Shown here piece by piece: positions 55,064 through 60,277 of a DNA stretch of 64,000 nucleotides. The position numbers were made by a program, and so were the translations under genes. Under the pieces are notes generated by a model. That model saw only the letters and a list, made by a program, of their open reading frames with translations. It ran no database searches and was not told the DNA's origin. Source of the DNA: Candidatus Nitrosotalea sinensis (lineage in GTDB: Archaea; Thermoproteota; Nitrososphaeria; Nitrososphaerales; Nitrosopumilaceae). The stretch spans positions 124,001 through 188,000 of the forward strand of contig NZ_FRFC01000003.1 in assembly GCF_900143675.1 (NCBI RefSeq), read 5' to 3'. The stretch's first letter is position 1, and each line of letters opens with the position of its first letter.

Positions 55064-55225
55064 ATGTCTGTTGATGTTGTTTGCGGAAGATGCGGAGCTA
55101 GAATTGCAAATATGAGAATGCTGAAATCAATAAAGGATGTGATGCGACCATATAACAGTAAATGTCCATCCTGCGGTCAGACATTGTCTCAATCTGAATT
55201 TAGTGTAGACGTACAGAAAAACTGA
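55064..55225 (+). CDS. 53-residue zinc-ribbon protein
   Basis: ATG 55064 to TGA 55223-55225. The peptide has CGRCG near the N-terminus and CPSCG near residue 38, so a single zinc ribbon (CxxC ... CxxC) with a basic helix between (ARIANMRMLKSIKDVMRPYN). I see no other domain. Such small ribbons often bind nucleic acid or work as subunits of RNA polymerase or chaperone-like complexes. It sits 73 bases after the DUF35 gene and 50 before the ATP-cone regulator, same strand. Confidence 0.75.
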   Translation: MSVDVVCGRCGARIANMRMLKSIKDVMRPYNSKCPSCGQTLSQSEFSVDVQKN

Positions 55226-55275
55226 TCTAAAAAGCTTACTTTTACGATCAAATCAGTCAAAAATCTTAATTACTG

Positions 55276-57390
55276 ATGCACTCTAGACATCCCATGGAAC
55301 TAAGCGAAGACTTTGGAGATCCAAAACGTGGTGGAATTCTACAATCTGCATCAAAACGTGTAAGAATGATCTTCTCTGTTATGGCAAGTCCAAACAGAAT
55401 AGATATTTTGCGTATACTAAATTCAAAAGGACCTCTTACCTATTCTGAACTCAAATCACTTGCTGGTTTCAAGTCAAAAAAAGAAAGTGGTAAATTTGCA
55501 TATCATTTGAGAAAATTACTTAGACAATCTCTTGTAGCACTTAACAAATCTGAAAGAAGATACACCATTACTAACTTGGGAAAACTCGTCCTAAGTCTTG
55601 CTAGGCAGATTGAGGAAAGATCTATTATTGAAAGTGGTAAGATGTACGTCAGGACTTCTCATGAGTCAATAGAAGAATTCAATTCTCATAAGATTATTCA
55701 ATCTCTTGTTCGTGAAGGTAGCCTTCCACTAGAACTGGCTCAAAAAATAACTGAAGAAGTAGAAAACCGAATATACAAATTCCAAACATCGTATCTTACA
55801 TCCTCGCTTATACGTGAAATGGTTAACTCTGTTCTTTTGGAACAAGGTCATGAAGATTACAGGCACAAACTAGCTAGATTTGGACTTCCTGGCTATGATA
55901 TACGTGAAATGTTAACTAATGTAGATGGGATTCATAATGGAGTAGAAGGCCTAATATCTAAAACAGGCCAAAGCGTATTTGGAGAATATCTTGTACTGAA
56001 TACTCTACCAAAAGATGTTGCTGATTCTCATCTCTCCGGTGATCTTCATATAACTAATGCTGGTTTATGGTCACTTTTACCTGATACTGTATTTGTAAAC
56101 ATAAAGGAACTCATTGAAGAAGGCGTTGACCTGAGAGGAAAATTCTTAAGTGTAACTAGAACTCCTTCTCCAAATTCATTGGATAGTCTATTTACTTCCC
56201 TGTCTATACTGACATCTCTACTCATCAAAGAAGCATCTCAAGAAGTAGTAATGGATGGTTTAGTTACTGTATTACAAAAATATGCCAAGAATTTGCCTGA
56301 GATTGAAGAAAAGCTTGCAAGCTGTTTTGCAAAAATATCTACAGGATCAAAATATGGAAAGAATGGAACTCTTGCTTCATTTAGAATTTCAATAAACACA
56401 GAACCAAAACTAGTTGGAACAATCCTTCAAGCATACAAAAAATATGTCAAAGTAACACCTCTTCCTTCAATAGGATTGATTGTTGATTATGAAAAAGCCA
56501 AGATAAGTGACTATTCTGAAGTATTGTCTGACATTATCGCATTAGGAGGACATATTATGTTCTCTAGAGGATTGGTGTCTAACAAGGGACTCTCACGTGG
56601 AGATACAAAAAATATTGGAACAACCTCAATCAATTTAGAATCATTGTCTATTAACATGCCACGACTTGCCTTTGAATCTAATAAAGATGAAACCTATTTC
56701 AGAGCACGACTTGCACTATTGATGAAACCAGCACTAGCAGCTATGTCTTTAAGAAAGAAAGAGATCTCTGATCTAACAAGACGAGGCCTAAACCCTATCC
56801 TTGCAAACAATACGCAATACATGCAAAAAGGTTCAGTTACGCTAGTTGTTAATCTGATTGGACTCAAAGAAGCAGTATATGGTATATTGGGATATGAAAA
56901 TAATAAGACTGGGCATGAAATAATATCCAAAGTAATAAACACTGCCATAGAAGTAGCTGCCAAGAAAGGAAAGGAAATGGGAGATAATGTCATAGTTACC
57001 ATGACTGAGAGTGATGCAGCCAGCCGTTTCTCGTCCCTTGATGGTGAAAAATATGGTAAGATGTCAATTAGTCATCATGTAGTAGGAGAATCATATTCCG
57101 AGGGAGTAATTCTTGATGCTGCTGAAATGGCAGAAATGAGTCCAAAAAATGAAAAAATTATAGAATCAAACTACTTTTCAAAAGTACTCAATGGTGGTTT
57201 ATTGGTACAGTTAAAGATCCCTGACACGATGGATTCTTCAGAAATAAAGAAGGCTATAGAAAAAGCAGGAGATCTACTAGTGTCATTCAGACCGATCAAA
57301 AAAGTGCCTATTTGTAGTAACTGTGGTCTCAAAGAAGAAAAGATCGCTGAGAAATGCTCTGTATGTAAGTCACCATACATACTCGCATAA
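55276..57390 (+). CDS. Winged-helix/ATP-cone/NrdD-like fusion: probable nucleotide-sensing regulator, not a reductase
   Basis: Residues 25-110 form an ArsR-like winged helix (MASPNRIDILRILNSKGPLT, then YHLRKLLRQSLV). Residues 120-212 are an ATP-cone (FNSHKIIQSLV, IREMVNSVLLEQ), the allosteric domain that binds ATP or dATP. Residues 213-675 resemble the NrdD (anaerobic reductase) body, followed by a zinc site Cys680, 683, 694, 697; the protein ends seven residues later. NrdD needs a glycyl radical loop after that site and radical-chain cysteines; the former is missing and the only other cysteine is in LASCFAK. Hence it cannot be a normal reductase. It precedes nrdJ by 229 bases. I infer a transcription regulator sensing dNTPs. 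Confidence 0.75.
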   Translation: MHSRHPMELSEDFGDPKRGGILQSASKRVRMIFSVMASPNRIDILRILNSKGPLTYSELKSLAGFKSKKESGKFAYHLRKLLRQSLVALNKSERRYTITNLGKLVLSLARQIEERSIIESGKMYVRTSHESIEEFNSHKIIQSLVREGSLPLELAQKITEEVENRIYKFQTSYLTSSLIREMVNSVLLEQGHEDYRHKLARFGLPGYDIREMLTNVDGIHNGVEGLISKTGQSVFGEYLVLNTLPKDVADSHLSGDLHITNAGLWSLLPDTVFVNIKELIEEGVDLRGKFLSVTRTPSPNSLDSLFTSLSILTSLLIKEASQEVVMDGLVTVLQKYAKNLPEIEEKLASCFAKISTGSKYGKNGTLASFRISINTEPKLVGTILQAYKKYVKVTPLPSIGLIVDYEKAKISDYSEVLSDIIALGGHIMFSRGLVSNKGLSRGDTKNIGTTSINLESLSINMPRLAFESNKDETYFRARLALLMKPALAAMSLRKKEISDLTRRGLNPILANNTQYMQKGSVTLVVNLIGLKEAVYGILGYENNKTGHEIISKVINTAIEVAAKKGKEMGDNVIVTMTESDAASRFSSLDGEKYGKMSISHHVVGESYSEGVILDAAEMAEMSPKNEKIIESNYFSKVLNGGLLVQLKIPDTMDSSEIKKAIEKAGDLLVSFRPIKKVPICSNCGLKEEKIAEKCSVCKSPYILA

Positions 57391-57619
57391 CTTTCACCTT
57401 AGGAAAGATGAAATAATTAAAGAGGAAAACAATCTAAATTAATCTAAAATTTATACTGAATTTTCAATGAATCCTCAAAATTTATTTTATCTCGAGACGA
57501 TCTAATACCATGAAAATCGTAACGGTGTCAACAAAATTGATCCAAAGTTTAGCTTTAGAAAATTATTTTTTGCCGCAGTGTTTATTTAACTCCCATTTGA
57601 TAGGTTGGAGGGGAGTAAT
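57391..57619 (+). promoter_or_regulatory. Promoter region of the class II ribonucleotide reductase, with direct repeats
   Basis: Two adjoining ten-base units, AATCTAAATT at 57431-57440 and AATCTAAAAT at 57441-57450, form a direct repeat, and the core ATCTAAA recurs upstream of the ATP-cone regulator (55225-55232). A TATA-like TTTATTTAA lies at about 57582-57590 and a strong Shine-Dalgarno GGAGGGG at 57608-57614. The rest has no gene. Confidence 0.45.
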
Positions 57620-60277
57620 TTGACAGATTTTTCACAAATAGAAAATTCAATCATTCAAGTAAAAAAGCGAGATGGTCGAGTATCTGATTTCCAAAAAGAT
57701 AAAATTTCAAATGCAATATACAAGGCACTTGTTGCATGCGGTAGATCCGATCATGGGCTTGCAGATAAACTAGCAGGTCATGTACTTGTAAAACTTGTTA
57801 ATAGAGGATTTTCTGGTTCTGACGCACCAAGTGTAGAGGATGTACAAGATATGGTAGAATCTACTTTGATTGAAGAGGGCCTGGGAGAGATCGCAAAGGC
57901 CTACATCCTATATAGACATGAACGACGACGAGTTAGAGAAGAAAAGATGAAGGTTCTTGAATCTAAATCCCTTGATAGCGTCGCAAAAAGATTTGATCTA
58001 AACTGTTTGAGAGTTTTAGCATCTAGATATCTTCTACGTAACAACAAGGGCCAAATCACAGAAAGTCCAGGTGAAATGTTTGAAAGGGTTGCTATTCTTG
58101 TAGGTATTGCAGATATACTACGAGATCCATCTGTATTTCAAATTGAAAGTGGTACCATTCAAAATACTGAAGAAGCCACAAGATATTTGGACAAACTTGA
58201 CGATTTCAACTATAAATTCAAGGTAGGAAAATACTATCTTAACAAATATCATTTTAGATCTCTTATCAATGCTTATATTGATTTGGCAAAACGTGGCCAA
58301 ATGAAAGTAAGCTTTAGAGAATTGTTGACCATGTTAGCTGCAAACAAGTTTGAACAATATGCTGAGAGAATAAAAGAATCATCTGACCTGATGGTTGCTC
58401 AAGACTTTCTGCCTAATTCTCCAACCATGATGAATGCAGGAGCACGATTAGGCCAACTTTCTGCATGCTTTGTGCTTGCAATGGAAGATGACATGGAAAA
58501 AATAATGAAATCGTCATCAGATGCTGCATTGATATTCAAATCAGGCGGAGGTGTTGGAATCAACTACTCTGATCTGAGACAGGAGGGAGATATGGTAGCA
58601 TCAACATCTGGAGTAGCTTCAGGACCAGTGTCTTTCATGAATATAATCAATACTGTTACTGAGGTAGTCAAACAGGGTGGAAAACGAAGAGGCGCAAACA
58701 TGGGAATCATTGAAGCATGGCATCCTGATATTGAAAAATTCATTACTGCTAAAACAAAACCAGGTGTTTTGGAAAACTTTAACGTGAGTGTTGGCGTGTG
58801 GGAAGACTTTTGGGATGCACTTGTAAATTCACCAGATGGAAAATTTGTCCTTCGAAGTCCACGTGAAAGAGATCCTGTTCGAGAAATAAATGCACATCAC
58901 CTAATTGACCTAATTGCATTATCTGCATGGAAGAGTGGTGAACCAGGATTGATCTTCTTTGATATTATAAACAAATACAATGTATTTGCTAAAGCAAGAG
59001 GAGGACCAATAAGAGCAACAAATCCATGTGGAGAACAAAGTCTCTATCCATACGAATCTTGTAACCTCGGTTCAATCAATCTCTCAAACTTTGTAAAAAG
59101 AAAAGCTGATGGTCAATACGAGTTTGATTGGCAGAGATATGAAGAAGCAATAAGAAAGACAACAAGGTTCCTTGACAATGTTATTGATGTAAACACATAT
59201 CCTATCCCAGAAATTGACAAAGCATCAAAAGACTCTAGAAGAATTGGACTTGGAGTCATGGGAGTAGCTGATCTGTTATTCAAGTTACGAATTCCATATA
59301 ACTCTCAGGAGGGGTATGAGTTCCAAGAGAAACTTGCCGAAGCACTCTCTTACTATTCCATGGAGGAAAGTGTAGCACTTGCAAAAGCGCGCGGGTCATT
59401 CCCATTGTGTTCAAAAACAGAGTTCCCAGAAGGTAAGATACCTATTGCTGGATACTATGAAAAACCAAAGAATGGACGAACTTATGATTGGGATGCATTG
59501 ATTGCCAAGATTCAGAAACATGGTATCAGAAATGTTCTTACAACTACTGTGGCTCCTACTGGCACATTGTCAATGATATCTGACTGCTCAAACGGAATGG
59601 AACCAATGTTTGCTCTAGTATTTGAAAAGAGAGTAACAGTAGGTAGATTCTTCTACACTAACAAAATCTTTGAAGCAGTACTCAAAGAACATGGTCTATA
59701 CAATGACCAGATTCTTGAGAAAATTGCAAATAACTATGGTTCAGTAAAAGGAATTCCGGAAATTCCAGAATGGATGCAGAAAATATTTGTCACTGCTATG
59801 GACATTCACTGGGCAGACCACTTGATGGCTCAGGGAGTATGGCAACGCTGGATAGGAAATGCCATTGCAAAGACAATCAATATGCCAAATGATGTATCAT
59901 CTGATGATGTCAAGGCTGCATATCTACTAGCACATGATCTTGGTCTAAAGGGAATAACTGTATTCAGAGATGGTTCAAGACATGAACAAGTATTACACAT
60001 GACTGGAAATAACGTACAAAAGAACTTCCAAGTAACTCCTAGTACATATGTAACAGATTATATCGCAAAGAATGTCACAAACTCATATCTAAAAACTGAG
60101 ATAGAAAGAGCACTTCAGATAAAAATGCCAGAAAGTGTAACATCTACTCCCACACCAGCACTTACACCAGAACAAATGGAAGAAAGATTATGCCCTACAT
60201 GTAAAAACAACTTGGTATTTGCAGAAGGATGTAGTGTATGCATTGAATGTGGATATAGCGGTTGCACATCTGGATAG
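57620..60277 (+). CDS. nrdJ: Ribonucleoside-diphosphate reductase, adenosylcobalamin-dependent (class II)
   Basis: The enzyme makes dNTP precursors using B12. An N-terminal ATP-cone (VKKRDGRVSDFQKDKIS, about 15-105) precedes the barrel. Catalytic cysteines are in LGQLSACFV, in NPCGEQSLYPYESCNLGS and in the C-terminal CPTCKNNLVFAEGC, then CIECGYSGC, that regenerates the active site. The TTG at 57620 has GGAGGGG five bases before; TTG 57605 would add five residues and lacks this signal. The 885-residue product is normal for class II. It follows the NrdD-like regulator. Confidence 0.95.
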   Translation: MTDFSQIENSIIQVKKRDGRVSDFQKDKISNAIYKALVACGRSDHGLADKLAGHVLVKLVNRGFSGSDAPSVEDVQDMVESTLIEEGLGEIAKAYILYRHERRRVREEKMKVLESKSLDSVAKRFDLNCLRVLASRYLLRNNKGQITESPGEMFERVAILVGIADILRDPSVFQIESGTIQNTEEATRYLDKLDDFNYKFKVGKYYLNKYHFRSLINAYIDLAKRGQMKVSFRELLTMLAANKFEQYAERIKESSDLMVAQDFLPNSPTMMNAGARLGQLSACFVLAMEDDMEKIMKSSSDAALIFKSGGGVGINYSDLRQEGDMVASTSGVASGPVSFMNIINTVTEVVKQGGKRRGANMGIIEAWHPDIEKFITAKTKPGVLENFNVSVGVWEDFWDALVNSPDGKFVLRSPRERDPVREINAHHLIDLIALSAWKSGEPGLIFFDIINKYNVFAKARGGPIRATNPCGEQSLYPYESCNLGSINLSNFVKRKADGQYEFDWQRYEEAIRKTTRFLDNVIDVNTYPIPEIDKASKDSRRIGLGVMGVADLLFKLRIPYNSQEGYEFQEKLAEALSYYSMEESVALAKARGSFPLCSKTEFPEGKIPIAGYYEKPKNGRTYDWDALIAKIQKHGIRNVLTTTVAPTGTLSMISDCSNGMEPMFALVFEKRVTVGRFFYTNKIFEAVLKEHGLYNDQILEKIANNYGSVKGIPEIPEWMQKIFVTAMDIHWADHLMAQGVWQRWIGNAIAKTINMPNDVSSDDVKAAYLLAHDLGLKGITVFRDGSRHEQVLHMTGNNVQKNFQVTPSTYVTDYIAKNVTNSYLKTEIERALQIKMPESVTSTPTPALTPEQMEERLCPTCKNNLVFAEGCSVCIECGYSGCTSG

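Follow-up and report, generated by a model that had tools for sequence, protein, structure and literature searches.

Proteins in which a metabolic enzyme fold is joined to a DNA-binding domain and controls its own pathway include PutA, BirA and NadR; to our knowledge, these three keep their catalysis and none of them is built from a ribonucleotide reductase (RNR). Among proteins linked to the control of RNR genes, the bacterial repressor NrdR has about 150 amino acids; it contacts DNA through its N-terminal zinc ribbon and binds dATP/ATP as well as palindromic boxes that precede nrd genes. NrdR senses nucleotides via its ATP-cone, setting the precedent for an ATP-cone that drives a DNA-binding module, and it is rare in archaea (PMC9110341). 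In active class III enzymes, the ATP-cones are likewise reported to read ATP versus dATP (PMC11226230, PMC12662201).

The window analysed here, a stretch of 64,000 nucleotides of Candidatus Nitrosotalea sinensis DNA, carries a gene next to nrdJ whose product, like NrdR, combines a putative DNA-binding module with an ATP-cone in a single protein that has a link to RNR control. It differs in that this module is a winged helix of the ArsR type in place of the N-terminal zinc ribbon, and in the complete but dead NrdD body that follows; the nucleotide binding and nrd boxes of NrdR have their possible counterparts in the ATP-cone and in a candidate palindromic element, both recognized from sequence. 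With hmmscan, no match to the NrdR model TIGR00244 (cut-off 124.65 bits) was obtained, and the architecture is a different one. The protein is most likely functionally like NrdR and related to it through the ATP-cone only. No description of the family was found in the literature searched, which included few subscription papers or preprints, and the RNR-family papers examined do not mention a helix-turn-helix or winged helix.

Domain architecture and catalytic residues

An earlier sequence-only reading had described a 704-residue protein consisting of a winged helix, an ATP-cone and an NrdD-like body, ending seven residues past the zinc site and with a single cysteine outside it. All three domains score over their Pfam cut-offs, and the position of the C-terminal end (seven residues past C697, the last zinc cysteine) and the cysteine count were both borne out. 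The matches extend over residues 32-106 for HTH_20/DUF7347 and 123-195 for the ATP-cone (PF03477, 40 bits against a cut-off of 25.8), and the NRDD match reaches residue 699. The coordinates of all features are given in Table 1.

Table 1. Features of the putative regulator gene and of nrdJ (window coordinates)
Feature	Position	Strand	Basis or remark
Promoter-like element of the putative regulator gene, GTCAnAAATCTTAWTTA	55256..55273	+	Kept across the family in upstream alignments
Gene for the winged helix–ATP-cone–pseudo-NrdD protein	55276..57390	+	704 codons, intact ORF
Winged helix-turn-helix, residues 30-112 (HTH_20 / DUF7347)	55363..55611	+	Pfam, over cut-off
ATP-cone, residues 120-205	55633..55890	+	Pfam E 6e-10, residue counts
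NrdD-like body, residues 206-675	55891..57300	+	Pfam NRDD, Foldseek, catalytic columns
Zinc ribbon CxxC...CxxC (C680, C683, C694, C697)	57313..57366	+	Cysteine counts in 148 homologs
Candidate operator, two imperfect palindromes about 20 bp apart	57506..57540	+	Conserved upstream of nrdJ in Nitrosopumilaceae
TATA-like TTTATTTA of nrdJ, putative function	57581..57588	+	Sequence; 32-39 bases before TTG 57620
nrdJ, class II adenosylcobalamin-dependent RNR with its own ATP-cone	57620..60277	+	NCBIfam NrdJ_Z, 731 bits

The gene probably starts at ATG 55294 (698 amino acids) rather than at 55276. Close relatives begin with MELSED, the ATG farther upstream shows no in-frame conservation, and a TATA-like CTTAATTA precedes ATG 55294 by 22-29 bases. 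This box (55265-55272) falls within the promoter-like element, which would act as the promoter of a leaderless-type start. At the 3' end, a frameshift or assembly error was considered and rejected, as the C-terminal end is shared by relatives from dozens of genomes. One member of the Nitrosopumilaceae (G307:C1:1756001-1758078) has the gene broken by an in-frame stop and a change of frame, possibly through decay or sequencing error. Directly upstream in the window and on the same strand, there is a 53-codon zinc-ribbon ORF at 55065-55224 that is conserved in Nitrosopumilaceae.

The AlphaFold2 model of the whole protein has a pLDDT of 85.1 and a pTM of 0.75, with pLDDT values of 76-92 for the winged helix (blocks of ten, residues 31-110), and its PDB matches at ranks 1-34 by Foldseek are all class III RNR chains. 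The protein thus shares with NrdD (PF13597, TIGR02487) a homologous body, the barrel fold and the zinc ribbon, but it has the extra winged helix and lacks the radical glycine, the N-strand cysteine and both finger-loop cysteines, and its TIGR02487 score is 81 against a cut-off of 326. After the zinc ribbon, the glycyl-radical loop of NrdD is missing. These differences are not peculiar to the window protein. The alignment to NrdD proposed in the sequence-only reading, comparing 148 family members with 21 neighbouring canonical NrdD proteins, revealed that the catalytic elements are missing family-wide, apart from the second finger-loop cysteine, which is kept in 22 of the 148 members. The N-strand cysteine and the first finger-loop cysteine are kept in none of them, and neither the R-x-x-G-Y glycyl-radical motif nor a full set of radical-chain cysteines was found in any, whereas the radical glycine and the cysteines are present in all 21 NrdD proteins. 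Each zinc cysteine is kept in 145-146 members and the Asn of the NLP motif in 147. Of 83 body positions invariant in NrdD, 17 are kept at 80% or more in the family, including the NLP motif and the zinc site. In a phylogenetic tree, the family and NrdD fall on the two sides of one branch (SH-aLRT 99). Judged from these residues, the protein is best described as a derivative of the class III reductase NrdD that has lost its catalytic elements.

The N-terminal domain matches HTH_20 and HTH_5, in which it resembles the ArsR/SmtB winged-helix repressors. It falls short of the ArsR/SmtB family itself, with 23.4 bits for HTH_metalloreg (NF033788) against a cut-off of 55 and PDB matches to SmtB/ArsR that are not significant (E ~0.3), and it differs from that family in being one domain of a 700-residue protein. 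The ATP-cone belongs to PF03477, but the phosphate-contact motif KRDG reads V-R-T-S, a change in two basic residues expected at the phosphates that calls for caution on nucleotide binding. Since several active NrdDs have VRTS as well, the protein may nevertheless bind nucleotides. The family signature of the cone is VRTS...EEF[DN]..[KR]I, with R126 of VRTS invariant, and YLT..L.R, E189 and R196 are conserved as well.

DUF7347, ATP-cone and NRDD were found together in all 66 aligned members scanned (ATP-cone at E <= 0.001). Against 15 same-family relatives, the winged helix showed 0 amino-acid changes in 1245 codon comparisons, compared with differences of 8% in the ATP-cone and 38% in the body, while four-fold sites differed by 54-63% in all three domains (54% in the winged helix). 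The lack of changes despite diverged four-fold sites indicates that the putative DNA-binding domain is under the strongest purifying selection. Within the protein's own order, conservation is highest in the winged helix. In the wider family (Bathyarchaeia), it is highest in the ATP-cone (55% identity), followed by the winged helix (34%) and the body (about 20%).

The sequence-only reading, which took the protein for a pseudoenzyme regulator, had named three observations that would speak against it, i.e., homologs with an intact glycyl-radical loop or radical-chain cysteines, a frameshift or assembly error at the 3' end, and a winged helix that homologs do not conserve. None of the three was encountered, which supports that reading, with binding and control as its predicted parts.

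Family distribution and linkage to reductase genes

Searches for the distribution of the family covered genomes within the phylum. At E <= 0.001, protein searches gave matches in 282 of 398 genomes, including all 74 of the same-order genomes listed, although some weak matches (about 57 above 1e-20) may reflect the ATP-cone alone. A denser sample of the order contained the family in 183 of 201 genomes, and in 126 of the 130 of good quality. Scanning of genome contigs confirmed at least 525 relatives; the 80 kept from these were nearly all labelled Bathyarchaeota. The family is therefore not confined to the Nitrososphaeria and is widespread in Bathyarchaeia too.

The start of nrdJ is TTG 57620, which aligns with the conserved ATG of relatives (M-TDFSQIE), rather than the mechanical ORF start at 57605, and it confirms the gap of 229 bases between the two genes given in the sequence-only reading. 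The adjacency, for which that reading had proposed a check across relatives, holds in 104 of the 116 genomes of the order in which both genes were located: nrdJ directly follows in the same orientation, with gaps of at most 742 bases. In 11 of the remaining 12, the two genes fall on separate contigs, often close to the contig ends, and in one they are truly apart. Two genomes (G061:C6:6546-10283 and G493:C122:8183-12001) have an insert, probably an intein, that interrupts nrdJ in frame at about residue 472-476; the open frames there have 1266 and 1278 amino acids.

In Bathyarchaeia, an active nrdD is found downstream of the putative regulator gene in 21 loci. The partners of the family comprise NrdJ with an ATP-cone, NrdJ without one by Pfam (L038, L067) and several types of NrdD. 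The putative regulators of loci L045 and L071 are 83% identical, yet the NrdDs downstream differ in type, and the same is true of L110 and L119, where they are sisters in the tree. At both pairs of loci, the reductase has been exchanged while the putative regulator stayed. Replacement of the neighbour with persistence of the association argues for a functional tie rather than inherited gene order alone; gene linkage by itself fits either a transcription regulator or a protein partner. Two Bathyarchaeial loci have a small ORF between the putative regulator and nrdD on the minus strand (L045:6227-6550 and L063:4685-4990), and the one in L045, a glutaredoxin by Pfam, is probably an NrdH-like reductant.

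The genome of Ca. N. sinensis has one RNR, with nrdJ as the single PF02867 match; a hidden NrdD or second RNR was rejected, as no other NRDD protein is present. NrdR was not found in this genome and, over cut-off, is absent from the order; it occurs over cut-off in 35 of the 398 phylum genomes, all in two families. Three proteins of the genome contain an ATP-cone, namely NrdJ, the putative regulator and a third at G000:C3:372985-373170 (open frame of 278 amino acids).

At many Bathyarchaeial loci (within L044-L150, e.g., L046:8256-9182 and L045:3046-3966), pyrB, encoding aspartate carbamoyltransferase, follows right after the putative regulator gene in convergent orientation, often within 5-50 bases, and pyrI is divergent from pyrB in many Bathyarchaeial genomes. 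One Bathyarchaeial family (f5; G184, G190, G231, G255, G281) also carries a true NrdR. At the five loci read from it (L056, L048, L052, L050, L066), the putative regulator adjoins pyrB and an RNR gene is not adjacent, a pattern that may be a lineage effect only.

Candidate operator and alternative readings

Upstream of nrdJ, the candidate operator is an element of about 35 bp made up of the palindromes TAccATGAAAATcgTA (57506-57521) and TCAAcaaaaTTGA (57528-57540). Its exact pattern occurs once in the genome, and its palindromicity reaches p ~0.03 against column shuffles, in an alignment anchored post hoc on part of the element. Conservation was seen in Nitrosopumilaceae only, and the element was not seen at the putative regulator's own promoter. 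We regard it as a candidate operator only, and a statistically weak one. Its location upstream of the nrdJ-proximal TATA-like box would fit activation, but there is another TATA-like stretch farther upstream, which would fit repression. A genome-wide regulon was not supported, with 14 sites for GGTGTMAANANNNTTGA at one mismatch against 9 for the reversed control, and the sites checked other than that at nrdJ lie mostly within coding sequence of unrelated genes. Rfam gave no match in the region at E <= 1, indicating no known riboswitch there. A short ORF (57510-57619) beginning with ATGAAAATCGTAACGGTG overlaps the candidate operator, and relatives have MKFIVxV-like starts at this leader ORF, with lengths varying from 7 to 37 codons.

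Considering the domain architecture and the gene neighbourhood together, we think it likely that this NrdD-derived pseudoenzyme with a winged helix senses nucleotides and regulates transcription of the reductase gene next to it. The many Bathyarchaeial copies that adjoin pyrB without an adjacent RNR gene count against this. They are instead in line with a DNA-binding regulator of a wider nucleotide set, comprising RNR and pyrimidine synthesis and possibly sensing pyrimidine plus adenine nucleotides: in 72 of 148 loci, including some that lack an adjacent RNR gene, pyrB (identified by Pfam like pyrI) adjoins the putative regulator gene or lies just past the RNR gene, and pyrI does so in 31 of 148. 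We consider this wider role unlikely, since pyrB is usually convergent with the putative regulator gene, which leaves no shared promoter, and the conserved gene order may simply be an ancestral one; moreover, the flanks read in the window's own family contained no pyrB beside the gene, and a shared operator was not found.

The tight linkage to RNR genes would also fit a partner at the protein level, in which the dead reductase binds the active NrdJ or NrdD and tunes it allosterically, the winged helix being a protein-binding module. A partner NrdJ without its own ATP-cone by Pfam (L038, L067) could then be supplied with one, and the invariance of the winged helix at every position within the same family exceeds the needs of DNA contacts alone. 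Yet the NrdJ of the window carries its own ATP-cone, winged helices of the ArsR type normally bind DNA, and a partner that changes class and type while the putative regulator stays is difficult to reconcile with conservation of a protein interface, making such a role rather improbable in our view. We regard it as very improbable that the protein is catalytically active, as an unusual reductase with a different radical route. The NrdD fold of the body, the nearly universal NLP Asn and the finger-loop cysteine retained in some members would agree with activity, but the radical glycine motif and the N-strand cysteine are lost throughout, the window member has neither finger-loop cysteine, 66 of the 83 NrdD-invariant positions are not kept at 80%, and an intact RNR gene lies right beside the putative regulator in most loci.

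Proposed mechanism and its meaning for archaeal dNTP supply

For the nucleotide-sensing regulator that we favour, we infer DNA binding, ligand binding and control of transcription, whether by activation or repression, from sequence features. We hypothesize that a class III reductase lost catalysis and gained a DNA-binding winged helix. The protein would form an NrdD-like dimer, in which the ATP-cone would bind ATP or dATP; the body has empty pockets, for substrate or for specificity, which might possibly do so as well. The bound nucleotide state would then alter the placement or oligomerisation of the winged helices, which would bind an operator upstream of nrdJ or nrdD, so that RNR transcription would follow the dATP/ATP ratio. 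With somewhat less assurance, we lean towards extending this to the whole phylum, i.e., to archaeal transcription factors derived from a dead RNR whose ATP-cone reads dATP/ATP and which control the adjacent class II or III RNR, as a counterpart of NrdR with an independent origin.

These results also give a warning for annotation, as PF13597 matches in these archaea, perhaps named anaerobic ribonucleoside-triphosphate reductase, are not all reductases. The transcriptional control of dNTP supply in most archaea is largely open. If the proposed role is true, the family would fill this gap for the ammonia-oxidising archaea and the Bathyarchaeia, which are among the most abundant archaea, and an enzyme would have been recycled as a sensor of its own product.
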